From: a virus | Length of the DNA stretch: 25,870 bases | Virus record (IMG/VR): IMGVR_UViG_3300030109_002884 | Span: 14,620 to 40,489 of that record | Direction: 5' to 3' (one strand) | Shown: piece after piece, positions 6,701 to 25,870 of the stretch | How the letters are laid out: every line of letters starts with the position of its first letter | Position numbering within the stretch: position 1 is the first letter of the stretch | Position numbers and translations under genes: made by a program | Notes under the pieces: model-generated | Told to the model about the DNA's origin: nothing | Database searches by the model: none | Seen by the model: only the letters and a program-made list of their open reading frames with translations

Positions 6701-9700
6701 AAACCAAGGTGCTGATAGTTCAAGAATATCTGAAATACGTATCATGAGACTTAATATTGAAACTGGTGAAGCTACAATATCATCTTCAAATCCAGCTGTT
6801 TTTGAAACAAGACCAATAGATTCTGCTGAATTAGATTTATATTACGAAATAAGTGATGCAATACCAATAATAAGATCTGGTATGACAGTGACCGGAACAA
6901 ATATAGGTAGTGGTAACACGAACATTGTAGATTCAGCATTAAGAAATAACGTGTTTACAGTTAAAAATAGTTTAGGTGGTACTGTTGCTGATAATACAGA
7001 ATTAACATTTACCCATTCAAAAAGTATATATAGTTTTAAAGCAACTGTAAATGGAGCAGTTAGTAGCGGTACAGATATAACAATAGATGACGGTAAAGCA
7101 CATGGTCAAACACAATCTTTAGATTGGTTTAATTGTTATTCATTTGGACAAGGTGTTGAATCAAATAGATTAAGAGATGATTTTAATGCTGTATTTATTG
7201 ATAAAGGAGTAAAAGTATCTACAGTATTAGCAGAACAATATAAAGAAGATCATAAGAAAAATGGATTTATATGGTCGGGTATATTTAACTCTACATCAGG
7301 TATAAATAGATTAAATCAATTTATTCAAGCAGAACCAATAACAAAAGATTTAAATCCATTTTATGGTAGTATACAAAAAATACATACAAGAGATAATGAT
7401 TTAATTGCTTTATGTGAAGATAAAGTTTTAAATATCCCAGCAAATAAAGATGTATTATTTAACGCTGATGGTAATACAAATCTTACCGCTAGCAATAGGG
7501 TATTAGGTGTTGCACAACCGTATGCTGGTGAATATGGTATATCTAAAAATCCAGAATCATTTGTGTCACATGCATATAGAGTGTATTTTACTGATAAAGC
7601 TCGTGGCGCTGTTTTACGTTTATCAAGAGATGGATTAACTAATATAGCTCAAAAGGGTATGACCGATTGGTTTAAAGATAACTTAGCTAATTCTACAACA
7701 TTAGTTGGTGGTTATAATGAAAGTAAAGGATCTTATAATTTAACATTAAAAGGAACAAGCAATTATACATTAAGTTATGATGAAAGAGTTGATGGTTGGA
7801 CAAGTTTTAAATCATTTATACCTGAATTTAGTGTATCATTAAATAACAAATACCACTCATTTAAAAATGGAGATTTATATTGCCATAACAATACAATAAG
7901 AAATGTATTTTATCAAAGAATAGGTAAAGTTAATGGCGCTGTTAGTAACAGCACTTCAGTAACATTAGATACCGCTGATAGTAAAATATTAGCTGGTGAT
8001 ATAGTAACAGGTACTGGTATAACAGGAACCGATGTAACTGTTTCAGCGATTAGTGGAACAGGTGTAACATTATCTTCAGCTCAAACAATATCTGATGATG
8101 TTGTATTAACATTTCACCCAACATATCAAACTTCTTTAAATTTACTTTTAAATGATAGTTATGATTTAGTTAAAGGATTTAAAACTATAAACTATGAAGG
8201 TTCTGATTCAAGGGTTTATAAGTATTCTGGAACAATTAGTAGCGTTGCTTACACTGATTTATTAATTGATGAGGTTATATCAAAATCGCCAACTTCATCA
8301 GAAGCAAACTCATTAACGTCAACAAACACAAAGGGTTGGTATTGTAATGCGGTAACTACAGATCAACAAACTGGATCGGTAAAAGAATTTATTGAAAAAG
8401 AAGGTAAGTGGTTTAACTATATTAAAGGTGATTCAACAACTATAGATAATTTAGATAGTCAAGAATTTTCTGTTCAAGGTGTTGGTAAACCATCTGGTGT
8501 TACTGGTGATACTAGTATAACTGGGTATGATGTTATAATAACATTAGCAGATGAAACAGGGTTAACTTTATCTAGTGTTGCTTCAGCTAGTGGTAATCAA
8601 TCATGGGAACAAAGTGGTAATGTTATAACTCTTTATGATATTGCTAACAGCACTAACTTAAATACATTTGACCATTTATTATTAACATTTACAGCTGACA
8701 CTGGTTTCACGCTACCAAGTAGTCAAAGTATAACATCACAAAGCCCAACTAGTTTTGAAGCGGTTGGTTCAGGTAGCTCAGCTTGGAATAGTACAACAGG
8801 TGTATTAACTCTTGATTTTACTAGTCAAACAATATCAAGCGCTGATAAAAGTATAAGTTTAAATTTAGCAAATGGTGGTACAGCTAAAACTTATTCTGTA
8901 AGCGGTACATACTTTACTGAAGAAGAAAATACAACAGGTGGTAACTCTGAAGTATCATATACTTCAACTGGCGCTTTTGATGCTACGTCAACAGTTGACT
9001 TAGAACCAGATGGTGGTGCTACAACAAAAACATTTACAGCAGATAGTGGATTTTATTTTAAAGATAGAGCAACCTGCGTTATCTATAAAGAAAGCGATGA
9101 GACAAAAAACTCATCCACGCTTGGTTATACTATAACACAAACAACACCAACACTAGGAAATGGTGGAAAAGATAGTGATGATAATGTAATTAAAGAAGTA
9201 TTTACAATAACATATAGACACCCAGCTGCTACTATAACTGGAGATGAAATAATGTTTACCGCTAAAGCAGAAAAAATATTTGTTCCACCTACATTAGCAG
9301 AGCAAGGTATAACAGCATTTAAAGCTTTAAATACAACCATACCTCAAGCTGGTGAACCTAATGGTAGAACACTTGAAATTATTGGTACTAATAATTCTAA
9401 ATTTTTCTTTAGAAGAAAAATATTTAATTCTAATGACGATAAAGCTGAAGAAAAATATTGGAATGGTTCAAGATGGAAAGATGCCGCAACTGAATTAACT
9501 ATACCTTCAAGTAATTCATTTAAAGTAGTTGAATATTACCCAGCAACAAGTACTAAAGTAAAATTTGTATATGATATAATACCATCAGATCCAGGTAGCG
9601 TATCTACTTTGTATGTTGGTCCTAATCCCGATGACACTTCAAGTAAAGAATTAACTTTATTTCAATATGGTAGCGTTACATTAACGTTTTTAGCAAAAGA

Positions 9701-10775
9701 TGATAATAATGATCACGATGGTGATGCAACAACAATTAGTAGGGTTGTAATGGCTGATGGAACTATTGTATTAAAATATACACAAGCTGATGGTAGTTTC
9801 TCAACAACATCACCAAGTAGTACATTAACATATCAAGCTTTAGGTCAACCAGAAATTGGTTCCGCTGCTGGTACGTTAGAAGCTACAATTACTATTGAAA
9901 ATAACAACAATGACACAGATGGTTATAAGGTTGTAAAAAATGTTGATACAAATGATTTTGTTGGTAGCGAATGTACTGGCGTTGTTTCAGCGAGAGTTGA
10001 GGCAAGTACAACAGTTGTTTTAGATGAACCTATTAGAGCATTAACAGCTGGTATGGTTGTAACTGGTGGTGGTGTTACAGCTAAAGGTGCTGATACTAAT
10101 GTTACAATTGCATCAATGAATACTGATCAAAAAACAATAACATTATCTTCAAACCAACAAATATCAGAAGGGGAAACATTAACGTTTTCACCAGCTAATG
10201 ATTGGAAGTTTGATCCTGTAATTGTATCTCAAACAGATAGTGACACATCAGGTGGAGCTGGAACAAGTGGAAAAACAGTTATAGTATTACAAATAAATAT
10301 CGAGCAGTATGGTACAACAAATTTAACACTACCACTTAATGTTTTTGATTGTTTTTCGGAAGTGCCTGCCACTGGTATTCCTGGTACTGGTATTCAAAAA
10401 ATAGGTATGGTTAAATCTGGCAGCGATACAACAATTCAAGGCTTTGGTATTAGTAGTGGAAAAAGGGTTGCTGTTGGTACAGCAGATAATACTATTCTAG
10501 CTGGTACAGTAAGGATATTTGCTGATTTAACGGGTAAATACTCTGATGATATTATAGTTGGTATATCCGCGGCTGAAACTACTGGACTTGATACATACAC
10601 TGGTGATACGTCAGTTACAGCGGCTAAGTATTCAGCTGGTACAGGCGAGGGAACAGGTGATGATTATATAGATGTAAACTGGCAGGTACTAACAGATGGT
10701 CAAGTTACAGCATCAAGTAGTTTACAAATATCTTGGACAGTATCATACCCAAGTTATGAAGACGCATCAAGTTAA
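3714..10775 (+). CDS. Giant tail stabilisation / muzzle-type protein with beta-repeat C-terminal extension
   Basis: A 2353-residue virion protein. The N-terminus (HHFRAGRMNKDLDERLVPNG, then EYRDAQNIEVVTSEGSDVG) is the hallmark of phage tail stabilisation or tubular proteins that cap the short tail. Further core blocks are KFVRYAYRWKYRDGEYSVFS near residue 345, GEYGISKNPESFVSHAYRVY near 1272, and YNLTLKGTSNYTLSYDERVD just after it. The core ends at about residue 1405. After that come about 950 residues of Ser/Thr/Gly-rich beta material with at least three copies of a repeat reading roughly AG-x-x-VTGTGI with a closing TLSS and LTF (one copy at residues 1050-1099 lies inside the core; others at 1406-1467 and 2090-2158). 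The family's core is usually much shorter, so the extension is notable; it may project outward for host or glycan contact (inference). The start is preceded by TAGGAT, but too close to be a good ribosome site. Confidence 0.75.
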   Translation: MPEIKHHFRAGRMNKDLDERLVPNGEYRDAQNIEVVTSEGSDVGSVQNIIGTTLKDGKTYDQNTQALTDWGLVSNSIKDLTNPECVGAIVDSQNDKIYWFIATSDQSVSAIAEYNYSTGEIAPVLVDVKSTSGGILNFSSDYLITGINVVEGLLLFTDNQSEPKKIKIDTFKLGSTNFSTHTLYKVILNGTTISSANFTENHITVAKLSPLQAPTLTMSSSRRSGNGTGTSPVSTKKSFVDSGNNNAVLATQVSVQLTFQGVDNNTTEGPLYQQKDTLVLTHTDSDGDDYEVRVVITRIDSINSNSCVQTVTTKIQTIPDAVPTTDVVWDVLLEEEEPLFENKFVRYAYRWKYRDGEYSVFSPFSEIAFLPNTFEYKSAEGYNEGMANNLRSLTININESRPSDVDEIDILYKESSNNTVYVVETLKEKPDGTFPSLSYEVKSEIIGAVVESNQILRPWDNVPIKAKSQEVTANRLIYANYYQNYNVPSDRLPNIQTTVRQKKITESTTPEGTSITAPGKPAKSLKSQRTYQVGVVYQDAYGRQTPVFSTEKATNQIGKKYAETVTGLDCRLLNDPPIWATHYKYFIKETSNEYYNLALDRFYEAEDGNVWLSFPSSERNKVTEEHYLILKKQHDSNRVVSDPAKYKILDIANEPPKFISVERSSIASATCKILSTNANKPGVGVSEFQVRGPSATENPSFAEGFTSDTVLEIQTSGGTTQKYKVSSGGLNGEFNGGSSPKDIYVIRLEKGFKNTDSTTLADTYLEANDSITIKLYQEKEVNKPEFAGKFFVKINRDSVFDTNIIATFPASTADYSVTKSRKIYEVIPNNGTPTISDDGRTTLQARQDLGWKDSSSWFDANKAKPQIKNPNLDVKNHPNKSGFAKKMIFYWAGVDYGVDWKDNPSSDKGKNHDETNTVNPFLEEISSAGTLFSFANDKKDSDNVYKVTNSTIDYQYRSTKDADKKFIYGKRRQYTIEFEQAENSTGGYQDEFVGNTNQGADSSRISEIRIMRLNIETGEATISSSNPAVFETRPIDSAELDLYYEISDAIPIIRSGMTVTGTNIGSGNTNIVDSALRNNVFTVKNSLGGTVADNTELTFTHSKSIYSFKATVNGAVSSGTDITIDDGKAHGQTQSLDWFNCYSFGQGVESNRLRDDFNAVFIDKGVKVSTVLAEQYKEDHKKNGFIWSGIFNSTSGINRLNQFIQAEPITKDLNPFYGSIQKIHTRDNDLIALCEDKVLNIPANKDVLFNADGNTNLTASNRVLGVAQPYAGEYGISKNPESFVSHAYRVYFTDKARGAVLRLSRDGLTNIAQKGMTDWFKDNLANSTTLVGGYNESKGSYNLTLKGTSNYTLSYDERVDGWTSFKSFIPEFSVSLNNKYHSFKNGDLYCHNNTIRNVFYQRIGKVNGAVSNSTSVTLDTADSKILAGDIVTGTGITGTDVTVSAISGTGVTLSSAQTISDDVVLTFHPTYQTSLNLLLNDSYDLVKGFKTINYEGSDSRVYKYSGTISSVAYTDLLIDEVISKSPTSSEANSLTSTNTKGWYCNAVTTDQQTGSVKEFIEKEGKWFNYIKGDSTTIDNLDSQEFSVQGVGKPSGVTGDTSITGYDVIITLADETGLTLSSVASASGNQSWEQSGNVITLYDIANSTNLNTFDHLLLTFTADTGFTLPSSQSITSQSPTSFEAVGSGSSAWNSTTGVLTLDFTSQTISSADKSISLNLANGGTAKTYSVSGTYFTEEENTTGGNSEVSYTSTGAFDATSTVDLEPDGGATTKTFTADSGFYFKDRATCVIYKESDETKNSSTLGYTITQTTPTLGNGGKDSDDNVIKEVFTITYRHPAATITGDEIMFTAKAEKIFVPPTLAEQGITAFKALNTTIPQAGEPNGRTLEIIGTNNSKFFFRRKIFNSNDDKAEEKYWNGSRWKDAATELTIPSSNSFKVVEYYPATSTKVKFVYDIIPSDPGSVSTLYVGPNPDDTSSKELTLFQYGSVTLTFLAKDDNNDHDGDATTISRVVMADGTIVLKYTQADGSFSTTSPSSTLTYQALGQPEIGSAAGTLEATITIENNNNDTDGYKVVKNVDTNDFVGSECTGVVSARVEASTTVVLDEPIRALTAGMVVTGGGVTAKGADTNVTIASMNTDQKTITLSSNQQISEGETLTFSPANDWKFDPVIVSQTDSDTSGGAGTSGKTVIVLQINIEQYGTTNLTLPLNVFDCFSEVPATGIPGTGIQKIGMVKSGSDTTIQGFGISSGKRVAVGTADNTILAGTVRIFADLTGKYSDDIIVGISAAETTGLDTYTGDTSVTAAKYSAGTGEGTGDDYIDVNWQVLTDGQVTASSSLQISWTVSYPSYEDASS
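6861..7010 (+). repeat. Protein-level beta repeat, copy 1 in the giant tail protein
   Basis: Encodes residues 1050-1099: SGMTVTGTNIGSGNTNI and a closing ELTF. It aligns by eye with the copies at 7929-8114 and 9981-10187. The DNA has diverged, so this is an old duplication or repeated acquisition of a module. Immediately after it, VNGAVSSGTDITIDD echoes the first residues of copy 2. Confidence 0.6.
7929..8114 (+). repeat. Protein-level beta repeat, copy 2 in the giant tail protein
   Basis: Encodes residues 1406-1467: VNGAVSNSTSVTLDTADSK, then ILAGDIVTGTGITGTDVTVS, then GVTLSSAQTISDDVVLTF. This is the clearest copy and marks the junction between the conserved tail core and the C-terminal extension. 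Confidence 0.65.
9981..10187 (+). repeat. Protein-level beta repeat, copy 3 in the giant tail protein
   Basis: Encodes residues 2090-2158: VVSARVEASTTVVLDEPI, then LTAGMVVTGGGVT, then TITLSSNQQISEGETLTF. It has the same order of strands as copy 2, with a short insertion (AKGADTN) in the middle. Confidence 0.65.
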
Positions 10776-13612: not shown

Positions 13613-16600
13613 ATGGAAAGATATATAGTAGATGGTCAAATATATAAGGTTAAACCTGAAAATATTGAAATATTTTTACAAAGATTCCCTACGGCTCAAA
13701 AAATATCTCAAGAGCAAAATACAATAAATGACATACGAAACGCACCTGTTATACGTAAATCAGAAGTTGAACAAGAATATAAACCTAATGGTTTTGAAAA
13801 AGGATTTGCATTTATGGTTGATTCAGCAACAGAGGGGTTTACTGATACACCAGCAACAGATTGGTGGGTTGGAAGAGACGGTGATGCGAGAACAGCGCTG
13901 TATAATGGTAAATTAAGAGCGAACGCTTTTGATGGTATTAATGATGTTTTTGGTTTATCTGAAGATGATTATATGACAGAAGAACAAGCTGAGAAATTTC
14001 AAAAATCCCTTAATTCTATGGGTAGTATGAAAGAAGTTCAATCATTTAAACAGTGGCAGTTTGATTATGATGAAATTTTAAATAAATATGTTGATCAATC
14101 TAAAGATTCTAAAGAATTTTCACCAGCACAACAAATAAGAGGGCATTTAGCTGCGGCTGTTGGCGCTACAACAAAAAATGGTCCTGGAGCAATGATGGGT
14201 GTTATGTTAGAATCACTACGTGGAATGGGTGATATGGATATTATAGCACCTGGTATAACAACCGCTGGTGGTGTTTTTGCAAAAACTAGAAATCCATTAA
14301 TGAGTTTGGCTGCGGGTTGGGGAGCAATGAATTACCAAGCGGAATCAATAAATACATTTTCAGAATTAGTAAGAGAAGAATTAGGTGAAGATATTTCAAC
14401 AGAAAATATATTAAAGTTATTTAATGATAAAGAAAAAATTGATGAACTAGAAACAAGATCAAGATTAAGAGGTGGTGTTATAGCTTTGTCGGAAGCAGGT
14501 GGTGCTGTATTTGGAGGAAAAGCCGCTGGAATAGTTAGCAAGCAAGTTAGTAAAAAGGTTGGTACAAGTTTACCAGGTAGACTTGCCGCGGGTACAGCGG
14601 GTGTTGGAGCTGCAGGTGCTGTTGAAATGCCAGCAAGTTTTGTTGGGGAAATAGGTGGTCAGGTTGTAGCTGGTCAAGATATAGATATAAAAGAGGGTGT
14701 TGTTGAATCATTAGCAAGTATTGGAACCGCTGCAATAAGTGGTCCGCTTGGTATGGGGCGATCTATATTACAATCCCCCTCATATAAGATAGGTGGAAAA
14801 AACGTTACCAGACAAGATATATTAAAATCTATAAAACACGCTAAAGATTCTGATTTACTTAGTCAGTACGCGGCAAATGTTGAAATTAAAAATGATCCTG
14901 TTTTAAAAGAAATGTTTAATAATAGATTTTTAAAATCTGCTATAAAACTTCAGGTTGATAAAAGAATTACCAACGAAAGCGATAGAAATGATATTACTGA
15001 ATTAGAATTAGAAAAAAGAAAATTAAAAAACAACGAAACACATACAGCTAAATTACGATTAAAAGAAATTGAAACAGAGATAGAAAATATAAGAAATCAA
15101 TATTCTAAAACAGGTAGATTAACACGTGAGGCGCAGGCGATAAGAGATAAACAAGCTGATTTAATGAAATCGTTAGGTGATGTAAAATTTAAAAGAGGAT
15201 TAGAGTTTGCTAAAGAATACAGTAGTTTATATAACCTAACTGTAGATGACAGCATGACGGTTGAAGAAATAAGAAATGAATTTGGTGAAACCGCGGCTAA
15301 GAGTAGTGGGCTTGTTGATCCTGAATCTAATAGAATAATAATAAATACTGAAGTAGCCAAAACAAAAGGAATAAGTGGTGCTAATGTGGGTAATCACGAA
15401 CTTTTACATGGCATATTAAATGCTAGTGGTATTAAAATAAAAAAATCTATGGTAACAGAATTTTTAAATATCATAGGTTCTGATGCTAAAGCAAAAATAC
15501 TAGAAAGAAAAAAAATATATGGAAAAGATTGGAATGATCAAGAGTATTTTACAATATATTCTGATATGTCAGCTGATCCAAATTTTGAATATAATAGCAA
15601 TGTTTTTGATTCATTAAAAGACTATTTTAGAAGATTATTTCAAGATTTAGGTGTAAAAAAGGTGGACTTTAAAGATATGAATGCTAAGGGAATGTATAAT
15701 TTTATAAGAGATTATAATAGAAGTATACATAAAGGTGTTTTAAGTAAGGGTTTAATTAAACAAGGTGAAGGTAAAGGAAAATCAAAACAATTTTCTTTAT
15801 CAATGACTGGTTCACAGAACATAAACGACATATATAATACAAAGGGTATAGAAGGTGGTTGGCAAGATATGGAAAGATTGTTAAAACCTACAGCAAAAGG
15901 ATTAGCTAATAGATACAGAAATGTACCTGGGTATAATCAAACAAAAGATATTTTAGTTGATGAAATATTAACAGGGCCAAGGGGTATGTTTGATGTTATA
16001 ATGGATTATGATACTAAAAAGAAAGCTGGTCAAGATATGGGTGAGTTGTCTGGTTATATTAACAATTCATTTTCAACAAAAACTGGATTTAAAAGATATA
16101 TAGAAATTGCAAATAGAATATTAGGTGAAGAATTTACAACTGATATAACTGAAGTAAAAGACATAGCGGTTGAAGAAACAAAAACACCAAAGGTTACTAA
16201 AAAACCTGAAGCAAGAAAAATAAAACCCATTGATTTAGTTGATGATGTTAAATTAAAAGAAAAATACACAAAAGATGTACAAGAAAAAATAAAAGATATT
16301 GATATAAATAATTTAACATTTAAAAACCTAAAAGATTTATCAGCTAAAAATACAGCAGAAATATTTGGTGTGGCTATGAAAAAAGTAACTGATCCTGCTG
16401 CAAATTTAACTAAACAAGAAAAAGAAAACGCGTTAATATTTATACGTAAAAACGCTTTAGACTTAATAGATTTATTACCAGAAGGTGCTATTACAGAAGC
16501 TGCATCAGAAAGTTTATTAGGCACATCAACTGGTGTACCCAAAAGTTTATTAAATAAATTTTATACTAAACAAGATAGAATAACTAAAGGAGCTGGATTA

Positions 16601-19600
16601 TCACCATACACTAAAAATAAAAATATATCTAAAACTAAATTTTTAGAAGCTTTTGGTGTAGTTGAAGGTAAAAAATCTACAGACTTTGGGCCAAGAACAC
16701 CAGAGGCTCAGGCTGTTAAATCGATAATGTCATTATATGGTAAATTAGCAACCAATACAATTGTAAGGCAAGAGTTATTAAATAGAGTTAATTCAGAAAA
16801 AGCAATACAGAATATTGGTGCTGGAAGATCTGCCACTCAGTTTAGCATAGATGATAATAAAGTTGCTGTAGAATTAAAGCAAAAATATTATAAGTTAGAT
16901 ACAATAAAGGGTGTTGAGAATTATATAAAAGATTTTACTGAAAAAATATCTCCATTATTTGAAGATGGATTTTTAAATTCAACAATATCTGTTAATGCTG
17001 CTATAATACCTAATAAAGAATTAAGAGATTATGCTAGAACACAAATTAAAAAATTAAATAAAAATTTAAGCAAAAGAAATCCTAATTTTGCTAAAACAAA
17101 ATTTGATGCAAAGTTAATACGTTCTAAATCATCAAAACAAATACAAGATTTAAATAAAAGAAATGTAGCTAATTTTACTTATATGTGGAACACGATTTAT
17201 GATGCTGTGCAAGACGATAAATCACTTGTAACACCATTATTACATTGGCTTAGAAACTCACAAAATGAAGGAACACACCCACATAGATTAGGTGCTGAAT
17301 ATTTAGGTGGTGTTGTTACTGATGGAAAATTATATTTTGAACATGCATTACAAAACGCTAGAGCATACAGGTTATTAATGAAAGCAGCGGTAACACAAGA
17401 CAAAAAACAATTTAACAAAACTTTAAAAGCATTAAAAAATAATTATAAACTAATAGCATTAACAAGTAAACAAAATACTAAAATAGATAAAGGTGGACTT
17501 AAGAATCTTATGGTTATCGATGGTGAATGGAATGTGTTTGATAACAATTGGTGGGAAAGATATTTTAATAAACACGTTGCTGCTATAGACGGTGGTATTG
17601 ATCCTAATAGTATAATAGATCTTGCAACTGGAAAAACACTTGGTGAAATATTAGGTATTGATAATTTTGGTAATCCAATAAATAATGATTTAAATACTTC
17701 AAAACAAAAAACAAGAAAACAAATAAAAGAAGTTTTAGATTCAGCGTTTAAACAACCTGAAAATATAACGCAAACTGAATTATTAAGTAAATCAAAAATG
17801 TATGATAAAGCAATAGCTTATTCAAGATCAACAAACCCTGAAAAAGGTATAAGTGTTTTTGATTTTGATGATACGTTAGCTAGAACACAAAGCCGGGTTA
17901 TTGTTACAATGTCAGATGGAAAAGAAATAAAAATAGATGCAACTGAGTTTGCTAAAAAATCTGTTGAACTACAAGAGCAAGGAGCTAAGTTTAATTTTGA
18001 AGAATTTAAAAAAGTTATAAAGGGTAAAAAAGGTCCTTTCTTTGAACTAGCTCAAAAAATAAAAGGTAAGTTTGGTAACAAAGATATTTTTATATTAACA
18101 GCTAGACCGCAAGAAGCAGCAAATGCTATACACGCATTTTTAAAAGGTTCAGGGTTAGACATTAGACAGGATAATATTATTGGACTAGAAGATGGTAGAC
18201 CAGAAGCAAAAGCAGAGTGGGTACTTGGTAAAGTTAATGAAGGATATAATAACTTTTTATTTGCTGATGATGCGTATAAAAATGTTAAAGCAGTTCAAGA
18301 TGTTTTAAATGAGGTTGATGTTAAGTCGGATGTTCAACAAGCTAAAATACAATTTAGTAAAGACTTAAATAAAGAATTTAACAATATACTAAGTGATACT
18401 AAAGGTATAGATCCAAACGCTATATTTTCAGATGCAGCAGCGAGAGTTAGAGGTGCTAAAGCCGATAAGTTTTGGAAAAGAATATTTATACCACCATCAG
18501 CTGAAGATTTTATGGGTTTAATGTATCACTTTGTTGGTAAAGGTAAACAAGGCGATAAACATTTAGCATTTATTAAAAAAGCTTTAATTGATCCGTTTGC
18601 TAGAGGATTTAGAGATATTAATGCTGCAAAACAAAGATTAGGTAATGACTATAATGAGTTAAATAAATCATACACAAATGTTAAAAAGAAATTATTAAGA
18701 GCAACTGATTACAGTAATTTTACTTTTGATGCCGCTGTAAGGGTTTACTTATGGGATAAAAATGGTATTGATATACCAGGTATATCTAAAAGAGATTTAA
18801 AAGCTTTAACAGATATAGTTAAAAATGACAATGAATTAAAATCATACGCAGATCAATTAGGTGTTATAACTAAACAAACAGATGGTTATATACAACCAGA
18901 TGAAAATTGGGTTGCTGGAACAATACAAACTGATTTAAACGATATTAACGTCAAAGTAAATAGATCACAATACCTAGCTGAGTGGATAGAAAATAAAAAT
19001 AAAATATTTAATAAAGACACGTTAAATAAAATAGAAGGGTTGTATGGTACTAGTTTTAGGGAAGCTATGGAAGATATATTGTATCGTATGGAAAATGGCA
19101 CAAACAGAACATTTGGTCAAAATAAATTAGTTAATGAGTTTACAGACTGGGTGAATAATTCTGTTGGTACAATTATGTTTTTAAATGCTAGATCAGCTAC
19201 ATTACAAACAATATCGTTTATAAACTTTATTAATTGGACTGATAACAACCCATTAAAAGTAGCACAAACAATACTCAATTTCCCTCAATTTGCTGAAGAT
19301 TTTGCAATGATATTTAATTCAGACATGTTAAAACAAAGAAGAAAAGGATTGCAGACTGACGTTAGTGCTTCTGAAATAGCTAATCAAGCTGCTACTTCTA
19401 AAAATAAAGTAAAAGCAATGATCTCTCATTTATTGAAAAAGGGATTTGTACTTACTCAAATGGCTGATAGTTTTGCTATATCTCTTGGTGGTGCTAGTTT
19501 TTATAGGAATAGATATAACACATATATAAAACAGGGTTTAAGTGAAGCTGATGCTAAAAGTAAAGCTTTTAATGATTTTCAAGAAACATCAGAGGTATCA

Positions 19601-20374
19601 CAGCAGTCAGCAAGACCAGATCTTATATCACAGCAACAAGCTGGTCCACTTGGTAGATTAATACTGTCTTTTCAAAATACACCAATGCAGTATACTAGGT
19701 TAATTAAAAAAGCAGCATTAGATTTAGCTAATAACAGAGGTGATAGAAAAACTAATATATCAAAGATATTATATTATGGTGCTGTTCAAAACTTTATATT
19801 TACAGCATTACAATCAGCATTATTTGCTTTAATGTTCACTGATGAAGAAGAAGAAAAAGAAAAAGAAAGGTATGCAAACTTAGTAAATAACATGGCTGAT
19901 ACTATATTAAGAGGTACGGGTGTTTATGGTGCCGCGGCATCAACTATAAAAAATGTAGCGTTAGAATTTATAAAGCAAGAGAAAAAAGGTTGGAGAGCTG
20001 ATCACGCTTATACAATGCTTGATGCAATTAATATATCACCACCCATTGGTAGTAAAGCTAGAAAAATATATGGTGCAACGCAGACTATGAAATTTAATAG
20101 AGATGAAATAAAAGAAAAAGGATTTAGTTTAGATAATCCTGCTTACGAGGCTGTTGGTAACGTTGTTTCTGCAACTGTTAATGTTCCGTTAGATAGAGCA
20201 ATAAGAATAACAAATAACACTAAAGAAGCATTAAATAAAAACAACGAAGCATGGCAACGTATTGCTTTAGCTCTTGGTTGGAATACTTGGGATTTAGGTA
20301 TGAAGCCAGTTAAGGTTAAGAAAGAGAAAGAAGAAAAAAAGAAAAGAAAAAGATTAAAAAGAATAAAATTATAG
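13613..20374 (+). CDS. Large polyvalent-type protein: zincin motif, HAD-like domain, membrane helix
   Basis: A 2253-residue multidomain protein. Residues about 175-385 contain glycine-rich hydrophobic stretches (HLAAAVGATTKNGPGAMMG, then AAGTAGVGAAGAVEMPASFV), as in ejected proteins. Residues 595-599 are HELLH within NVGNHELLHGILNASG, the metal-binding and catalytic signature of zincin metallopeptidases; the third ligand is not assigned. A HAD-like domain spans about 1412-1570: motif I is FDFDDTLA (D1417, D1419), motif II ILTARP (T1496), motif IV FADDAYKN (D1552, D1553). The C-terminal third includes a hydrophobic helix near 2052-2078 (YYGAVQNFIFTALQSALFAL) and ends in a basic tail (KEEKKKRKRLKRIKL). 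This architecture fits the large polyvalent proteins described by Iyer, Burroughs and Aravind, thought to enter the host with the genome. It starts two bases after the preceding gene. The domain calls are firm by motif; in-cell targets are unknown. Confidence 0.7.
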   Translation: MERYIVDGQIYKVKPENIEIFLQRFPTAQKISQEQNTINDIRNAPVIRKSEVEQEYKPNGFEKGFAFMVDSATEGFTDTPATDWWVGRDGDARTALYNGKLRANAFDGINDVFGLSEDDYMTEEQAEKFQKSLNSMGSMKEVQSFKQWQFDYDEILNKYVDQSKDSKEFSPAQQIRGHLAAAVGATTKNGPGAMMGVMLESLRGMGDMDIIAPGITTAGGVFAKTRNPLMSLAAGWGAMNYQAESINTFSELVREELGEDISTENILKLFNDKEKIDELETRSRLRGGVIALSEAGGAVFGGKAAGIVSKQVSKKVGTSLPGRLAAGTAGVGAAGAVEMPASFVGEIGGQVVAGQDIDIKEGVVESLASIGTAAISGPLGMGRSILQSPSYKIGGKNVTRQDILKSIKHAKDSDLLSQYAANVEIKNDPVLKEMFNNRFLKSAIKLQVDKRITNESDRNDITELELEKRKLKNNETHTAKLRLKEIETEIENIRNQYSKTGRLTREAQAIRDKQADLMKSLGDVKFKRGLEFAKEYSSLYNLTVDDSMTVEEIRNEFGETAAKSSGLVDPESNRIIINTEVAKTKGISGANVGNHELLHGILNASGIKIKKSMVTEFLNIIGSDAKAKILERKKIYGKDWNDQEYFTIYSDMSADPNFEYNSNVFDSLKDYFRRLFQDLGVKKVDFKDMNAKGMYNFIRDYNRSIHKGVLSKGLIKQGEGKGKSKQFSLSMTGSQNINDIYNTKGIEGGWQDMERLLKPTAKGLANRYRNVPGYNQTKDILVDEILTGPRGMFDVIMDYDTKKKAGQDMGELSGYINNSFSTKTGFKRYIEIANRILGEEFTTDITEVKDIAVEETKTPKVTKKPEARKIKPIDLVDDVKLKEKYTKDVQEKIKDIDINNLTFKNLKDLSAKNTAEIFGVAMKKVTDPAANLTKQEKENALIFIRKNALDLIDLLPEGAITEAASESLLGTSTGVPKSLLNKFYTKQDRITKGAGLSPYTKNKNISKTKFLEAFGVVEGKKSTDFGPRTPEAQAVKSIMSLYGKLATNTIVRQELLNRVNSEKAIQNIGAGRSATQFSIDDNKVAVELKQKYYKLDTIKGVENYIKDFTEKISPLFEDGFLNSTISVNAAIIPNKELRDYARTQIKKLNKNLSKRNPNFAKTKFDAKLIRSKSSKQIQDLNKRNVANFTYMWNTIYDAVQDDKSLVTPLLHWLRNSQNEGTHPHRLGAEYLGGVVTDGKLYFEHALQNARAYRLLMKAAVTQDKKQFNKTLKALKNNYKLIALTSKQNTKIDKGGLKNLMVIDGEWNVFDNNWWERYFNKHVAAIDGGIDPNSIIDLATGKTLGEILGIDNFGNPINNDLNTSKQKTRKQIKEVLDSAFKQPENITQTELLSKSKMYDKAIAYSRSTNPEKGISVFDFDDTLARTQSRVIVTMSDGKEIKIDATEFAKKSVELQEQGAKFNFEEFKKVIKGKKGPFFELAQKIKGKFGNKDIFILTARPQEAANAIHAFLKGSGLDIRQDNIIGLEDGRPEAKAEWVLGKVNEGYNNFLFADDAYKNVKAVQDVLNEVDVKSDVQQAKIQFSKDLNKEFNNILSDTKGIDPNAIFSDAAARVRGAKADKFWKRIFIPPSAEDFMGLMYHFVGKGKQGDKHLAFIKKALIDPFARGFRDINAAKQRLGNDYNELNKSYTNVKKKLLRATDYSNFTFDAAVRVYLWDKNGIDIPGISKRDLKALTDIVKNDNELKSYADQLGVITKQTDGYIQPDENWVAGTIQTDLNDINVKVNRSQYLAEWIENKNKIFNKDTLNKIEGLYGTSFREAMEDILYRMENGTNRTFGQNKLVNEFTDWVNNSVGTIMFLNARSATLQTISFINFINWTDNNPLKVAQTILNFPQFAEDFAMIFNSDMLKQRRKGLQTDVSASEIANQAATSKNKVKAMISHLLKKGFVLTQMADSFAISLGGASFYRNRYNTYIKQGLSEADAKSKAFNDFQETSEVSQQSARPDLISQQQAGPLGRLILSFQNTPMQYTRLIKKAALDLANNRGDRKTNISKILYYGAVQNFIFTALQSALFALMFTDEEEEKEKERYANLVNNMADTILRGTGVYGAAASTIKNVALEFIKQEKKGWRADHAYTMLDAINISPPIGSKARKIYGATQTMKFNRDEIKEKGFSLDNPAYEAVGNVVSATVNVPLDRAIRITNNTKEALNKNNEAWQRIALALGWNTWDLGMKPVKVKKEKEEKKKRKRLKRIKL

Positions 20375-20424: not shown

Positions 20425-20709
20425 ATGGAAGAAATTTTAGACAAAAAAGTAGGTATAGATATAGATGGAGATAAAAAACCAGATATAAAACTTGACATCA
20501 AGAGTATTCTAATAGTAGGTGGTTTCCTAATATCTGGGGCCATGTCATACTCAAACCTAAAACAAGAAATAGAAATAGCAAAAGAACTACCTGAGCAAGT
20601 TCAAATTGATGTAAAAGCATTTGATACAAAGATAGAGTACCTTCAAAGAGAAATCGATAAGTTAGAAAAAACAATTGATGATCTTGAGGATAAAGTTTAT
20701 AAACGTTAA
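20425..20709 (+). CDS. Single-membrane-helix protein with coiled-coil tail (holin or spanin candidate)
   Basis: A 94-residue protein, start context AAAATTATG. Residues 12-20 (DIDGDKKPD) have Asp spacing like a calcium-binding DxDxD loop. Residues about 27-42 (SILIVGGFLISGAMSY) form one membrane helix. Residues 45-92 are a charged heptad-like coiled coil (KIEYLQREIDKLEKTIDDLE). A membrane anchor plus coiled coil fits an inner-membrane spanin or a holin-associated protein, but the endolysin is 1.3 kb away and the function is unproven. It opens the small-gene region and is followed after five bases by the first basic microprotein. Confidence 0.6.
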   Translation: MEEILDKKVGIDIDGDKKPDIKLDIKSILIVGGFLISGAMSYSNLKQEIEIAKELPEQVQIDVKAFDTKIEYLQREIDKLEKTIDDLEDKVYKR

Positions 20710-20714
20710 TAATT

Positions 20715-20843
20715 ATGAAAGATAAAAAGTATAAACCACACATGATGTATTGTAAAGATGGTACAGGTAAAAAAGCAATGACATACAAAGAACATCTAGC
20801 GCTTAAAAAGAAAGGCTGTGGTCACACAAAACCTAAAAAATAA
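20715..20843 (+). CDS. Basic microprotein 1 (42 residues)
   Basis: ATG in the context AATAATTATG. The product is Lys-rich with two Cys: YKPHMMYCKDGTGKKAMTYK, then EHLALKKKGCGHTKPKK. I recall the AMTYKEHLALKKKGCGH block from other aquatic phages, without known function. The Cys/His pattern could bind zinc (inference). It is first in a row of eight basic small genes spaced 0-10 bases apart or overlapping. Confidence 0.6.
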   Translation: MKDKKYKPHMMYCKDGTGKKAMTYKEHLALKKKGCGHTKPKK

Positions 20844-20847
20844 TATT

Positions 20848-21000
20848 ATGGCTATAAAAAGAACAAAAATAAGTTCACCTTGTAAGGCAGCAGCAAAAAG
20901 AAAATTTAAAGTTTGGCCTAGCGCTTATGCTTCTGGATGGGGCGTAAGATGTACAAAGGCTGGTGGGCCAGGTAAAATGGGTAAATCTAAAAGTAAATAA
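20848..21000 (+). CDS. Basic microprotein 2 (50 residues), WPSAYASG type
   Basis: The ATG at 20848 (AATATTATG) is preferred over an in-frame GTG at 20818, which would overlap the previous gene by 26 bases. Core CKAAAKRKFKVWPSAYASGW followed by GVRCTKAGGPGKMGKSKSK. I recall the WPSAYASG core with flanking Cys from many phages and large DNA viruses; no biochemical role is known to me. Two Cys may form a metal site. Confidence 0.65.
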   Translation: MAIKRTKISSPCKAAAKRKFKVWPSAYASGWGVRCTKAGGPGKMGKSKSK

Positions 21001-21001
21001 C

Positions 21002-21130
21002 ATGGGATATACAAGTGCAGCTCAACGTAAAGCGGTGTGGGCATCAAAAAACGAAAAGAAAGCAGCTAAAAGAAAAGCTAGAAAAACTACAAGAAAAGCT
21101 AGAAAAACTACAAGAAAAAAGAAAAGATAA
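21002..21130 (+). CDS. Basic microprotein 3 (42 residues), histone-tail-like with tandem repeats
   Basis: Nineteen of 42 residues are Lys or Arg against one acidic residue. The C-terminal half repeats KARKTTR twice (AAKRKARKTTRKARKTTR then KKKR), encoded by an exact 21-bp tandem repeat. The composition resembles histone H1 tails or protamines, so nucleic-acid binding or DNA compaction is a reasonable inference. It overlaps the next gene's start by one base (TAATG). Confidence 0.6.
   Translation: MGYTSAAQRKAVWASKNEKKAAKRKARKTTRKARKTTRKKKR
21071..21112 (+). repeat. Two exact 21-bp tandem repeats inside basic microprotein 3
   Basis: Two identical 21-bp units (21071-21091 and 21092-21112) encode the RKARKTT repeat; six further bases begin a third unit. 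Being a multiple of three, unit gain or loss would keep the frame. Confidence 0.95.
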
Positions 21131-21231
21131 TGAAAAAGAAAAAAGGTAGATGTTGGGCAGGTTACGCGCCTGTAAAAGGTAAAAAACCATATTCACCTGG
21201 TAGTTGTAGAAAAATTAAAAGAAAAAAATAA
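21130..21231 (+). CDS. Basic microprotein 4 (33 residues)
   Basis: Starts in a TAATG overlap with the previous stop and ends in another with the next start, so it is translationally embedded in the array. Sequence blocks MKKKKGRCWAGYAPVKGKK and PYSPGSCRKIKRKK. The CW-x-GY ... GSC spacing is one I recall from short phage proteins. Function unknown; the two Cys may be a metal pair. Confidence 0.55.
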   Translation: MKKKKGRCWAGYAPVKGKKPYSPGSCRKIKRKK

Positions 21232-21473
21232 TGGCAATAAAAGGTGGAGGAACTAAGAAAGTATGTTTACCTTATGCTAAATATAAAAGCATGAGTAGAG
21301 CTGAAAAGCAAAAAGTCATATCAGCTAAAAGAAGAGCTGGTGCAGCAGGTAAATATAAGAGAGCAAAATCTAGCTTTGTTAAAGGTGCAAGAAAAAAGGG
21401 TGCAACATTAAGAGATTGGTTTAAAAAAGAAAGGTGGGTTAACATAGCCACTGGAAAACCATGTGGAGAATAA
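21231..21473 (+). CDS. Basic microprotein 5 (80 residues)
   Basis: TAATG overlap with the preceding gene fixes the start. The product has Lys/Arg-rich helical segments (SMSRAEKQKVISAKRRAGAA, then YKRAKSSFVKGARKKGATLR) and ends in DWFKKERWVNIATGKPCGE. The ending resembles, from memory, the WV-x-I ... CG signature of small viral proteins grouped as DUF5872; not verified. Helical basic proteins of this kind could bind nucleic acid. Confidence 0.65.
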   Translation: MAIKGGGTKKVCLPYAKYKSMSRAEKQKVISAKRRAGAAGKYKRAKSSFVKGARKKGATLRDWFKKERWVNIATGKPCGE

Positions 21474-21482
21474 ATTAATATT

Positions 21483-21662
21483 ATGAAATCAAGAGGACTA
21501 GGAGATACAGTACATAAATTCACTAAAGCAACTGGTATAAAAACTATGGTAGATAGATTATCAGATGGTTTAAATATACCGTGCGACTGTGAAAGCAGAA
21601 GAAAATTATTAAACAATCTAGTTCCTTATGATCAAAAATTTAAATTAGGTAGAAAAAAATGA
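21483..21662 (+). CDS. Basic microprotein 6 (59 residues), GLGDT ... CDCESRRKLLN type
   Basis: ATG in the context AATATTATG. Blocks MKSRGLGDTVHKFTKATGIK, then NIPCDCESRRKLLNNLVPY. I recall GLGD-x-(V/I)-x-K-x-TKATGI with a C-x-C-x-x-R motif from many aquatic phages; function unknown. The CDC pair may coordinate metal. Less basic than its neighbours but with a basic C-terminus. The next gene starts inside its stop codon. Confidence 0.6.
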   Translation: MKSRGLGDTVHKFTKATGIKTMVDRLSDGLNIPCDCESRRKLLNNLVPYDQKFKLGRKK

Positions 21663-21772
21663 AAAGCAAATACAAAAAACTAACTGGTAAACAAAAAAAA
21701 ATAGCTATGGCAGCACCACCTTTTAATAAAATAACAGGCGCTGATTTTAAAGCTTTAAAGAAAAGAAAATAA
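21659..21772 (+). CDS. Basic microprotein 7 (37 residues)
   Basis: The ATG overlaps the previous stop (AATGA). Blocks KYKKLTGKQKKIAMAAPPFN and KITGADFKALKKRK. I recall the LTxKQKKIA ... ADFxALRxKK pattern from other phage small proteins. No Cys. Function unknown. Confidence 0.55.
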   Translation: MKSKYKKLTGKQKKIAMAAPPFNKITGADFKALKKRK

Positions 21773-21774
21773 AA

Positions 21775-22026
21775 ATGGCTGAACCAAGGAAAACTACAAA
21801 AGGTAAAGGGCGTAACTTTCGTACCGTAAAAGAAGGTGCTGGTATGACAAAGACTGGTGTAGCAGCGTATAGACGTAAAAATCCTGGTAGTAAATTAAAA
21901 ACAGCTGTAACTGGCAAAGTTAAATCTGGTAGTAAAGCCGCAAAAAGAAGAAAGTCATTTTGTGCTAGATCAAAAAATTGGAAAGGACCAAGGGGTTTAG
22001 CAGCTAGAAGAAGGTGGAAATGTTAA
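21775..22026 (+). CDS. Basic microprotein 8 (83 residues), KSFCARSKNW type
   Basis: Starts two bases after the previous stop. Blocks MAEPRKTTKGKGRNFRTVKE, GVAAYRRKNPGSKLKTAVTG, GSKAAKRRKSFCARSKNWKG and a C-terminal AARRRWKC. The KVKSGSKAAKRRKSFCAR block is one I recall as highly conserved among cyanophages and other marine phages (DUF6321-like, unverified). Very basic, two Cys. The presence in unrelated phages argues for a shared function, perhaps in the virion or on nucleic acid. Confidence 0.7.
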   Translation: MAEPRKTTKGKGRNFRTVKEGAGMTKTGVAAYRRKNPGSKLKTAVTGKVKSGSKAAKRRKSFCARSKNWKGPRGLAARRRWKC

Positions 22027-22035
22027 ATAAAAAAT

Positions 22036-22491
22036 ATGATAAGCGATAACATAAGTTTTAAAGAAGGTACATTTAGTGCTACTGCTATGCGTTTGGGTTT
22101 ACCTAATGCACCAAGTAAACAACATTTAACAAACATGCAGGTGTTGGCTAGAAGAATATTTCAACCACTTAGGGTTTATGTAGGTGGTCCAATAAAAATA
22201 AACTCATTTTACCGAGGACCACAGCTAAACAAAGCAATTGGTGGATCTAAAAAATCACAACATTGTTACGGGCAAGCAATTGATATTGATGATGTGTTTG
22301 GTCACAGAACAAACTCACAAATGTATCATTGGATTAAAGAAAATCTTGATTTTGATCAAATGATTTGGGAGTTCGGAGATGATGATAACCCTGATTGGGT
22401 ACACGTTAGCTATGTTGATAAAGAAACTAACAGAAACAGATGTCTAAGAGCTTCTAGGAGCAACGGAAAAACTACATACGAAGTAATATGA
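22036..22491 (+). CDS. M15-family peptidase, probable endolysin
   Basis: A 151-residue protein matching the M15 (D-Ala-D-Ala carboxypeptidase/L,D-endopeptidase-like) zinc peptidases. Visible metal ligands are H76 and D83 in SQHCYGQAIDID, and H123 in DWVHVS; E112 in MIWEFG is the likely catalytic base. SFYRGPQLN (57-65) is the usual preceding block. It would cleave peptide cross-links of peptidoglycan at lysis. No signal peptide, so it needs a holin or similar to cross the inner membrane. It is followed after two bases by a membrane micropeptide and then a lipoprotein, consistent with a lysis cassette. A role in virion entry is possible but less likely given the position. Confidence 0.85.
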   Translation: MISDNISFKEGTFSATAMRLGLPNAPSKQHLTNMQVLARRIFQPLRVYVGGPIKINSFYRGPQLNKAIGGSKKSQHCYGQAIDIDDVFGHRTNSQMYHWIKENLDFDQMIWEFGDDDNPDWVHVSYVDKETNRNRCLRASRSNGKTTYEVI

Positions 22492-23296: not shown

Positions 23297-24316
23297 ATGA
23301 AATCAAAATTAGAATATATATGGCTTGACGGGTATAAGCCAACTCAAAGCTTACGCAGCAAAACCCGAATAATCAATAATTTTAGTGGTAAATTAAAAGA
23401 CTGTCCTATGTGGAACTTTGATGGGAGTTCAACAAGGCAAGCTGAAGGTGGTGAGTCTGATTGTTTACTAAAACCTGTAGCTATATATACAGATCCATGT
23501 AGAGATGGTGGTTATTTGGTAATGAATGAAGTGTTAAACGCAGATGGTTTACCTCATGAATCTAATGGTAGAGCTACTATAGATGATGATGATGATGATT
23601 TTTGGTTTGGTTTTGAACAAGAATATTTTTTCTGGGATACTAAAATAAATAAACCTTTGGGTTGGAAAAACGCTATGTACAATGAACAAGGTCAATATTA
23701 TTGTAGTGTAGGTGCTAATAATACTTTTGGTAGAAAAACTGTTGAATCACATTTAAATCAGTGTTTAAAGGCTGGATTGAATATTGAAGGTATTAACGCT
23801 GAAGTAGCTGTTGGTCAATGGGAGTTTCAGGTGTTTGCTAAAGGTGCAAAAAATGCTGGTGATCAAGTTTGGGTAGCTAGGTACTTAGCTGAAAGAAATG
23901 CAGAAAAATGTAATATAGCTATTAATTGGCATCCAAAACCTGTTAAAGGTGATTGGAATGGTTCTGGTATGCATGCAAACTTTTCTAATTCATTATTAAG
24001 AAAATGCTGTAATGATAGGGTATTTTTTAAAATATGTGAGGAATTTGGAAAAAATATAAATAGACATATGGATGTTTATGGCGCCGATAATGATCAAAGA
24101 TTAACAGGCAAACATGAAACTCAATCGATAAATGAATTTAGTTATGGTATATCTGATAGAGGAGCTTCAATTAGAATACCTATAAGTACAGTTGAAGATG
24201 GGTGGAAGGGAAGATTAGAAGATAGAAGACCCGCTTCAAATGCAGATCCTTATTCTGTAGCGGCTGCTGTGATTAAAACTACAAAAGAAATAGTAATTCA
24301 ACACCCAACAGTTTAG
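23297..24316 (+). CDS. Glutamine synthetase, type II (GSII)
   Basis: A complete 339-residue enzyme joining ammonia and glutamate to glutamine with ATP. Family blocks in order: LEYIWLDGYKPTQSLRSKTR, WNFDGSSTRQAEGGESDCLL, the metal site GFEQEYFFWD, GINAEVAVGQWEFQ, the ATP/glutamate region HPKPVKGDWNGSGMHANFS, RLTGKHETQSI, DRGASIRIP and LEDRRPASNADPY. All expected catalytic blocks are present, so it should be active. The sequence follows, from memory, the Bacteroidetes GSII form far more closely than GSI, implying capture from a flavobacterial host. GSII lacks the adenylylation loop of GSI, so it would escape that control. It lies between a holin-like gene and a lipoprotein, opposite ribonucleotide reductase; glutamine is the nitrogen donor for purines and CTP, so both feed DNA synthesis. 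Confidence 0.97.
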   Translation: MKSKLEYIWLDGYKPTQSLRSKTRIINNFSGKLKDCPMWNFDGSSTRQAEGGESDCLLKPVAIYTDPCRDGGYLVMNEVLNADGLPHESNGRATIDDDDDDFWFGFEQEYFFWDTKINKPLGWKNAMYNEQGQYYCSVGANNTFGRKTVESHLNQCLKAGLNIEGINAEVAVGQWEFQVFAKGAKNAGDQVWVARYLAERNAEKCNIAINWHPKPVKGDWNGSGMHANFSNSLLRKCCNDRVFFKICEEFGKNINRHMDVYGADNDQRLTGKHETQSINEFSYGISDRGASIRIPISTVEDGWKGRLEDRRPASNADPYSVAAAVIKTTKEIVIQHPTV

Positions 24317-24467: not shown

Positions 24468-24716
24468 ATGGAAGAAGAAAATAAATATACACACCCTCAT
24501 TTTATAGCATTAGTTACTATAATTATGTTGTTAGTATTAACAACGTTAATAACACAGGGTTGTGCAACTACCGCTCAATTATATGTCGATCCTAGATATA
24601 AAATTCAACCAACACAAAACAAATCATACCCAGAAATAAATGTTGGTGTGAAAATAAATGTTGGTCCTAAAATTACATTCAAAAAAAAGGGGGAAATAAA
24701 TCCCCCTCCTAATTAA
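24468..24716 (+). CDS. Small lipoprotein, unknown function
   Basis: An 82-residue protein. The N-terminus is charged (MEEENKYTHPH), then a hydrophobic helix (FIALVTIIMLLVLTTL) leads to the lipobox-like ITQGC with Cys32. The mature part is short and beta-like (QLYVDPRYKIQPTQNKSYPE, then INVGVKINVGPKITFKKK) and ends GEINPPPN. The long acidic N-terminus is unusual for a lipoprotein signal; an inner-membrane anchor is the alternative. Its last codons overlap the terminator of the convergent nrdA gene, and its stop overlaps the nrdA stop. Possible spanin or exclusion role, unproven. Confidence 0.6.
   Translation: MEEENKYTHPHFIALVTIIMLLVLTTLITQGCATTAQLYVDPRYKIQPTQNKSYPEINVGVKINVGPKITFKKKGEINPPPN
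24681..24706 (-). terminator. Rho-independent terminator of nrdA, inside the opposite lipoprotein gene
   Basis: GGGGGA (24689-24694) pairs with TCCCCC (24701-24706) around a six-base loop. Read on the minus strand it is followed by eight T (24688-24681), directly after the nrdA stop. On the plus strand no T-run follows, so it acts in one direction. It encodes the lipoprotein ending KKKGEINPP. Confidence 0.85.
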
Positions 24717-25870
24717 CCATCACAACTTAAACAAGTCTCATCAAGAGCCTGTTCAGCTATATCTCCTCTGAGAACTGATTCTGTTCTCATATAATACAAA
24801 GTTTTAATACCTTTTTTCCAAGCTTCTAAATGTACTTTATTAATAAATTTAGGATCAGCTTGAGCAGGAAACGCTAGATTTAAGCTTACAGCTTGATCTA
24901 TATATTGTTGTCTTATACCTGCTTGATTAACTAAATCTAGTTGATTAATCTCTTTAAAAGTTTTATATACTTCTTTTATTGGTATGTCTTTTTCTGGACC
25001 TACCATAACTTTATCAAGTTCTTTAATACCTTGAACAGATCCTCCATCAGCTAATATTTGATCCCATATTTTATCTGTATTAAGATTTAAATCTTTTAAT
25101 ACATTTTCGAGCGTAGGGTTCCTACGTATGAAAGTACCCTTAGCAGACTGATCAGTAAAAACGTTAGCGGCCCAAGGCTCAATACCAGGGCTAATATTGC
25201 CACTAAGCTTGCTATTACTAACAGTAGGAGCAATGGCACGAAGATGAGTATTCCGCATCCCAGTACCAACACACCAAAGAGGTTCATTAAATGCCTCAGC
25301 AAGCGCCATTGAGGCTCTTTCGCTTTCAATTTTAATTTGACTAAATATTCTTCTAGTTTCATATTGTGCTAATAATCCTTCGAAAGGAAATCCTTTCTGT
25401 TGTAAATATGTGTGCCATCCAAGAACTCCTAATCCTAAAGCTCTACCTTTTTCAGCAGATCTTATAGCATTTTCAAATCCCCTTACGTTTTTAGCTCTTT
25501 GTATAAACTCTTCTAATACACCATCTAAAAACCATATACTATCATAGATTAAATTACTATCTTTCCACTCATGATATTTAGCTAGGTTTAAACTAGATAA
25601 ACAACACACAAAACTATGTGATTCATCAGTGTGCAATACAATCTCTGAGCATATGTTTGTCATAAAGACTTTCAGAGCATTATCCTTATACATACTAGGG
25701 TTTTGTTTGTTTACATTACCCTTAAACATAACATAAGGTTCTCCAGTTGCTTTACGTTTTTGTAATAACTTACTCCATTTACGTCTTGCAACTTTATCTC
25801 CAGCGGCTAACTTTCTCATAAACTTATCACTAACAACAGTACATTGATGCATGTTTAATGATTGTCTATT
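24713..25870 (-). CDS. nrdA: Class I ribonucleotide reductase, large subunit, C-terminal part (5' end outside window)
   Basis: The open frame continues past the window's end (the residues before MHQC read NRQSLN), so 385 C-terminal residues are present. The enzyme reduces ribonucleoside diphosphates to deoxy forms for DNA synthesis, using a radical from the small subunit, which is not in the window. Visible active-site features: the N-x-C-x-E motif (TNICSEIVLHTDE) for thiyl radical, acid and hydrogen bonding; the following redox Cys in FVCCLSSLNLAKY; the paired tyrosines of radical transfer in KTLYYMRTE; and the C-terminal redox pair CLSC just before the end. All key residues are present, so it should be active. 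It runs opposite to the structural genes and probably belongs to a replication/nucleotide module beyond the window. Confidence 0.95.
   Translation of the reverse strand, partial: NRQSLNMHQCTVVSDKFMRKLAAGDKVARRKWSKLLQKRKATGEPYVMFKGNVNKQNPSMYKDNALKVFMTNICSEIVLHTDESHSFVCCLSSLNLAKYHEWKDSNLIYDSIWFLDGVLEEFIQRAKNVRGFENAIRSAEKGRALGLGVLGWHTYLQQKGFPFEGLLAQYETRRIFSQIKIESERASMALAEAFNEPLWCVGTGMRNTHLRAIAPTVSNSKLSGNISPGIEPWAANVFTDQSAKGTFIRRNPTLENVLKDLNLNTDKIWDQILADGGSVQGIKELDKVMVGPEKDIPIKEVYKTFKEINQLDLVNQAGIRQQYIDQAVSLNLAFPAQADPKFINKVHLEAWKKGIKTLYYMRTESVLRGDIAEQALDETCLSCDG

Follow-up and report, generated by a model that had tools for sequence, protein, structure and literature searches.

The closest described counterparts of the locus reported here are the cyanomyovirus protein gp114 (phrog_727; S-RIM8 and S-RIM2) and the mosaic proteins P-SSM4_156, P-SSM4_160, S-CREM2 ORF160 and S-CRM01 g34. 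These gp114-type mosaics are cyanophage proteins of 300-600 aa with acidic linkers, and several of them are encoded between TerS and TerL. Two Pfam families are also concerned, DUF6321 (PF19846), for which no function is assigned, and DUF5872 (PF19197), which was annotated in an algal giant virus (PMC12085832). Through a limited open-access literature search, we found one mention of DUF5872 and none of DUF6321 or of the WPSAYASG core described below.

Small basic proteins are known inside other viral particles. The internal proteins of T4 are small and basic, present in about 300 copies per head and DNA-binding in low salt, and several of them are ejected (PMC9026906). The PBCV-1 virion DNA-binding proteins A278L and A282L contain a short basic module, the PBCV-specific basic adaptor domain (PMC3281028). 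For phages, cations and polyamines are thought to do nearly all of the neutralising of the DNA (PMC3281028).

The array and its surroundings

The window (the whole stretch of 25,870 nucleotides that was analysed) makes up the final 25.9 kb of a viral record 40.5 kb long; the part upstream of it contains TerL, the portal and the beginning of the capsid region. TerL lies at 7629-9848 of the record and the array at about 35334-36645. TerL showed 63% identity with the metagenomic podovirus MW202828 and about 44% with Flavobacterium phages. One metagenomic record aside, the phages of the collection with the closest TerL have Flavobacterium, Cellulophaga and Tenacibaculum as hosts, so the host of this virus is likely a marine Bacteroidota. 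A GroES-like co-chaperonin gene was also seen near TerL in the same virus (L162:6813-7403; phrog_13932, 2.2e-17).

The array is composed of eight tandem ORFs at 20715-22026. Together with their neighbours, in whole-window coordinates, they are:

13613-20374, + strand: 2253-aa protein, virion/ejection-type by size and position
20425-20709, + strand: 94-aa holin- or spanin-like protein with one probable membrane segment and a coiled coil
20715-20843, + strand: s1, 42 aa, net charge +11, two Cys; MYCKDG...HLALKKKGCGHTKPKK
20848-21000, + strand: s2, 50 aa, net charge +14, two Cys; core KVWPSAYASG
21002-21130, + strand: s3, 42 aa, net charge +18, no Cys; GYTSAAQRKAVWAS and a Lys/Arg tail
21130-21231, + strand: s4, 33 aa, net charge +14, two Cys; CWAGY...GSC
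21231-21473, + strand: s5, 80 aa, net charge +20, two Cys; GGGTKKVCLP... / ATLRDWF...PCGE
21483-21662, + strand: s6, 59 aa, net charge +8, C-x-C; GLGDT..FTKATGI...IPCDC
21659-21772, + strand: s7, 37 aa, net charge +12, no Cys
21775-22026, + strand: s8, 83 aa, net charge +26, two Cys; DUF6321 (PF19846)
22036-22491, + strand: M15 peptidase endolysin, directly 3' of the array (PF08291, 2.6e-13; phrog_894, 7.9e-30)
23297-24316, + strand: glutamine synthetase-like gene, type II by eye (weak phrog_21628 match, 1.5e-18)
24713-25852, - strand: ribonucleotide reductase large subunit fragment (phrog_84, 8e-94)

An earlier note on this DNA had described eight genes of 33-83 codons, nearly all Lys/Arg-rich, with five tight junctions, set between virion and lysis genes, and this layout was confirmed. 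All eight ORFs were located on the + strand, and the spacing from s1 to s8 is +4, +1, -1, -1, +9, -4 and +2 bases, of which five (+1, -1, -1, -4 and +2) are overlaps or gaps of at most 2 bases. Upstream is the 2253-aa virion-type protein and downstream the M15 endolysin. The 2253-aa protein precedes the array in 29 viral loci, and its first 963 aa gave no PHROG match and no match in the phage record collection. The 94-aa protein, which showed a weak phrog_10340 holin/anti-holin match (3.5e-5), is also near the array in sister loci.

All eight proteins are strongly basic, with a net charge of +8 to +26 each, pI 10-12 and K+R of 24-45%; the summed net charge of the set is +123 over 426 residues. 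The window is AT-rich throughout, yet 16 further genes checked in it range from -0.064 to +0.061 net charge per residue, so base composition alone is no explanation for the basicity. The claim that most members carry one or two Cys was correct for the pairs only: s1, s2, s4, s5, s6 and s8 contain exactly two, but none contains one, and s3 and s7 contain zero.

Both Cys were present in every copy of s4 and s6, and in 126 copies of s8 (one Cys in 2). Among distinct copies of s2, 49 have both, 27 have neither and 2 have a single one; the 16 distinct copies of s1 comprise 13 with both, 3 with neither and 0 with a single one. This coupling points to a joint role of both residues. The Cys-less s2 class is largely one V/T variant, which argues for few independent Cys-loss events in s2, and the coupling may have few evolutionary events behind it. 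The paired Cys are probably linked by an intramolecular disulfide, or else bind one metal together, which would stabilise a mini-domain in the particle. The joint gain and loss of the pair agrees with a disulfide no less than with a common zinc site.

By score, s8 is a full member of DUF6321 (42.4 bits, gathering cut-off 28.5), and the members other than s8 are unclassified or below cut-off against known families. In s3, no Pfam match to DUF3008 (PF11450) was found at E up to 1; S-RIM2 gp114 is sub-threshold for this domain (21.8 vs 24). The search of solved structures gave none for s8, none for s2 and one doubtful match for s5 (0.022). AlphaFold models of s5 and s8 reached a mean pLDDT of only 67-68, so their fold matches were used solely as sequence-family confirmation.

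Module distribution, fusion and permutation

A total of 161 loci were assembled, consisting of the record that holds the window and of loci retrieved from marine viral contigs by baiting with s8 and s5. Profile search in these loci found s8 in 137, s5 in 131, s2 in 122, s6 in 58, s4 in 24, s3 in 20 (21 ORFs), s1 in 19 and s7 in 13. The members s1, s3, s4 and s7 show accessory turnover between relatives. In addition, s8 was found in 42 phage records, including SAR11, Synechococcus and Methylophilales phages among others. A genome scan for s5 gave only two metagenome-binned contigs, both viral-looking, one with a gene of the 2253-aa virion type (L183) and the other with an M15 gene (L184).

For co-occurrence, 22 non-redundant s5 loci with full flanks were used. 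They contained s2 in 22/22, s8 in 14/22 and s6 in 12/22, and every array member found in them is on the same strand; these figures are conditional frequencies, s8 and s5 having served to retrieve the loci. The earlier note had asked for such a search of aquatic virus contigs and had hinted that the gathering was special to this virus. Members co-occur on the same strand in most relatives, which speaks against that hint: finding the members together is the norm for this group of phages and the operon is therefore typical, not exceptional.

Gene order varies, with s8-s6-s2-s5 in 21 loci, s2-s5-s8-s6 in 3 and others besides. Fusions were found for s3-s2 (L002 and L158), s4-s5 (L004, L005, L006 and L158), s1-s5 (L151 and L154) and s5-s8 (L018 and L160). 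Moreover, s5 exists in two circularly permuted forms, with 64 direct and 35 permuted distinct copies; examples of the permuted form are HTVC027P gp50 (L164:3622-3885) and the copies in L072, L080, L034 and L037. Its two Cys are near each other in sequence, and they are at opposite ends in the window's s5. Judged from these arrangements, the genes are modules that are reordered, fused pairwise and, in the case of s5, permuted.

Some sister clusters contain extra tiny basic two-Cys proteins outside the eight families (L104:3486-3773 and 3754-3999; L114:3290-3556). Small basic genes also adjoin s6/s2 relatives in MW202828 (L171:3673-3963) and CRP-207 (gp71, L179:2705-2983); by eye these two resemble another shared viral module, perhaps DUF5754.

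Isolated phages were searched with profiles made from the window's families alone, for which the best match in shuffled proteins was 0.056. The s2 profile matched S-RIM2 (2e-16), S-RIM8 (3e-16), P-SSM4, CRP-207, C75C1 and HTVC027P at E 1e-14 to 2e-16 and the virion protein S-CREM2 ORF160 at 3e-18, and the s2 core gave 373 loose matches in ocean phage records. The s5 profile matched HTVC027P (5e-20) and C75C1 (1e-7), both in the permuted form, and P-SSM4_160 (0.0012). In Pelagibacter phage HTVC027P, gp49 corresponds to s2, gp50 to permuted s5 and gp52 to s8. Many isolated-phage matches were found for s8, and relatives of s6 are present in MW202828 (1e-20) and Nonlabens phage P12024S (3e-7). The cores WPSAYASG, KRRKSFCAR and GLGDT...TKATGI do recur in unrelated aquatic viruses, as had been suggested, but the s1 core AMTYKEHLALKKKGC has significant matches only in viral contigs (19 loci).

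In T4-like cyanophages, the s2 and s8 cores are joined in one protein, gp114, and phrog_727 was matched by s2 at 3.6e-5 and by s8 at 1e-7. In S-RIM8 and S-RIM2, gp114 is encoded between TerS and TerL and contains weaker s4-like and s5-like motifs as well, the s5-like motif of S-RIM8 being read by eye. The s4-like motif (CW.GY...C) occurs in cyanophage gp114 and in the virion proteins S-CREM2 ORF160 and S-SZBM1_139, and is marginal against the s4 profile proper (best domain E 0.02). In other marine phages, one long protein has several of these modules as its domains, so the conserved unit is the module and not the gene boundary. L/I-x-E prohead-protease sites in the linkers of gp114-like proteins are in excess only in some proteins, partly explained by acidic runs.

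DUF5872 was reached from two sides. s2 scored 17 bits over profile positions 8-43 only, below the cut-off of 27.5, and the permuted s5 of HTVC027P scored 21 bits over positions 53-109 of the 116-position domain, also below cut-off. The DUF5872 model looks like an s2 half joined to a permuted-s5 half.

Virion evidence and possible role

The earlier note had proposed that the set neutralises or compacts the packaged genome, is injected with it, or rewires host RNA/DNA. Virion data are available for module-bearing proteins of two cyanophages. In CsCl-purified virions of S-CREM2, ORF137 was detected with 4 unique peptides (4.1% coverage) and ORF160 with 7 (13.1%), and its authors pointed out that CsCl-purified particles can carry contaminants (PMC10665884). 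The C-terminal domain of ORF137 is DUF6321 (s8), and ORF160 contains s5-like, s4-like and s2 modules; a six-frame scan of the whole S-CREM2 genome found these two as the sole family matches below E 0.01. Given that 52/219 ORFs were detected, finding 2/2 module ORFs by chance has p of about 0.056. Taken over its full length, ORF137 is not basic (net charge -0.04 per residue), and its peptides need not fall inside the module.

In S-SZBM1, virion proteomics detected gene 139 but not gene 192 (PMC9146016). The former contains the s4-like motif and a histone-H1-like Ala/Lys/Gly stretch, the latter is a DUF6321 protein, and s2 is absent from this phage. Thus 3/4 of the known module proteins in the two phages were virion-detected, and the virion part of the earlier proposal is indirectly supported by homologues of s2/s4/s5 and s8 in S-CREM2 and by the s4-like protein in S-SZBM1, but not by the DUF6321 protein of S-SZBM1. 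S-SZBM1_195 (87 aa, abundant in virions, beside TerS) was considered and is not one of these modules. The virion-detected S-CREM2 cargo ORFs 6, 14, 136 and 154 (L185, L187), which include a SAM hydrolase, a kinase and a cytidylyltransferase, have N-termini that by eye resemble the T4 capsid-targeting leader (e.g. MKNFSSFLTEA).

For the present virus, we infer a virion location from these homologues in other phages. Since several array members correspond to building blocks of large ocean-phage proteins, some of which are virion-detected, the array proteins would most likely travel with the viral DNA. We therefore lean, with a little better than even confidence, towards the set being virion-internal, DNA-associated proteins delivered with the genome; the late location beside virion-type and lysis genes supports the virion reading. 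The array genes would be expressed late, each product being one short module, and the products packed into the virion alongside DNA, to which their excess positive charge would bind them. They would then enter the host together with the genome, in the manner of the basic proteins inside the T4 head. DNA binding, delivery and the disulfide are what we infer in this proposal, and among charge neutralisation, injection and host rewiring, delivery with the genome seems to fit best. As a guess, single members may have a defence or takeover role after entry.

As an indication of scale only, 300 copies of each protein (the T4 figure, PMC9026906, assumed here) would carry about 37,000 positive charges against about 80,000 phosphates in 40 kb DNA. 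A further-reaching idea, which we consider quite unlikely, is that in many marine tailed phages a protamine-like virion chromatin is assembled out of exchangeable two-Cys basic modules of 30-80 aa, as an operon in some, concatenated in cyanophages and possibly also in algal giant viruses. Such modules would compact the packaged genome and offset part of its charge by means of mini-domains locked by disulfides, which would come open once inside the reducing cytoplasm of the host.

The proteins might instead be intracellular only, as late small RNA-/DNA-binding proteins that would silence, protect or redirect the nucleic acids of host and virus without ever entering the particle. Small size and strong basic charge would suit such a role, as would the turnover of s1, s3, s4 and s7, which resembles that of host-interaction genes; in addition, the virion data come from module-bearing homologues, not from stand-alone forms, and S-SZBM1_192 was undetected. 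However, relatives with these modules were detected in the virions of S-CREM2 and S-SZBM1, the set is located in the late virion-lysis region in this phage group, and coupled Cys pairs would be more at home in an extracellular particle than in a reducing cytoplasm. We give this explanation a minor but real share of credit.

A role as head-assembly or packaging helpers, i.e. transient scaffold, portal or terminase partners that neutralise DNA during pumping and then leave, is unlikely. It would be suggested by the relatives that directly precede TerL or are set between it and TerS in S-TIP28, Venkman, S-N03, S-CRM01, S-B68, S-CREM2, S-RIM2 and S-RIM8, and by s6 lying two genes before TerL in P12024S. 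As a general rule, TerL adjacency was rejected and is not used as main evidence, because TerL is within the fetched flanks of only 5/80 s8 loci and 0/80 s5 loci; in this virus TerL is about 26 kb upstream of the array. Where it occurs, adjacency may mean little, since the space between gp16 and gp17 is a recognised hot spot for insertions (PMC3037559).

The M15 endolysin and the holin/spanin-like gene adjoin the array, and this position directly before the endolysin could be read as that of lysis-associated basic peptides acting on the envelope; no signal peptide or membrane segment was seen in the eight sequences and the same modules are far from lysis genes in other phages, which makes this very unlikely.

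The eight array ORFs are real, conserved genes. Median pairwise dN/dS (Nei-Gojobori, pairs with dS 0.1-1.5, kinship among sequences not corrected for) was 0.26 for s1, 0.33 for s2, 0.38 for s3, 0.27 for s4, 0.28 for s5, 0.18 for s6, 0.30 for s7 and 0.20 for s8, indicating purifying selection in 8/8 families (range of medians 0.18-0.38); homologues free of such selection, which the earlier note had named as an outcome speaking against its proposal, are thereby excluded. ATG-ORFs of at least 33 aa cover 98.8% of 20715-22026; across 2000 dinucleotide shuffles the maximum was 5 ORFs and 48% cover (0/2000 near the observed value). Although the AT skew peaks at the array (0.37), as expected if the ORFs were a spurious product of an A-rich strand, that reading is rejected and keeps practically no credit in view of the selection in every family, the conservation across unrelated phages and the shuffle test.

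Comparison with known systems

The families are known so far only as DUFs or unclassified phage clusters, and in hundreds of ocean phage records the modules are annotated merely as hypothetical. If they are DNA-associated virion proteins, a protein component would be added to phage DNA neutralisation (cf. PMC3281028). A cultured SAR11 phage with stand-alone s2, s5 and s8 genes within about 850 bp makes this component testable. The split, fused and permuted forms offer a rare view of the evolution of very small protein modules. Our limited open-access search did not find the split operon, the gp114 module link, the permutation or the Cys coupling in the literature.

With gp114 and the cyanophage mosaics, the array shares homologous s2 and s8 cores and the s4-like and s5-like motifs; there they form a single fused protein, whereas here each has a gene of its own, linkers are lacking, and the phage is podovirus-like and from a different lineage. 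Its s8 belongs to DUF6321 proper; s2 and permuted s5 match different parts of DUF5872, and in this virus the two halves are separate genes. The PBCV-1 proteins A278L and A282L are alike in having a short basic module in DNA-associated virion proteins, and their basic adaptor domain gave no Pfam match in any of the eight at E up to 1. T4 IPI, IPII and IPIII are similar in size, basicity (33-83 aa and pI 10-12 here) and a variable accessory set (PMC9026906). The T4 proteins are cut by the head protease and have a capsid-targeting leader; such a leader is, by eye, absent from all eight N-termini, none of which is like the MKxFxxFLxE-type starts of the S-CREM2 virion cargo. On balance, we rate the array as probably belonging with the phage internal basic proteins.
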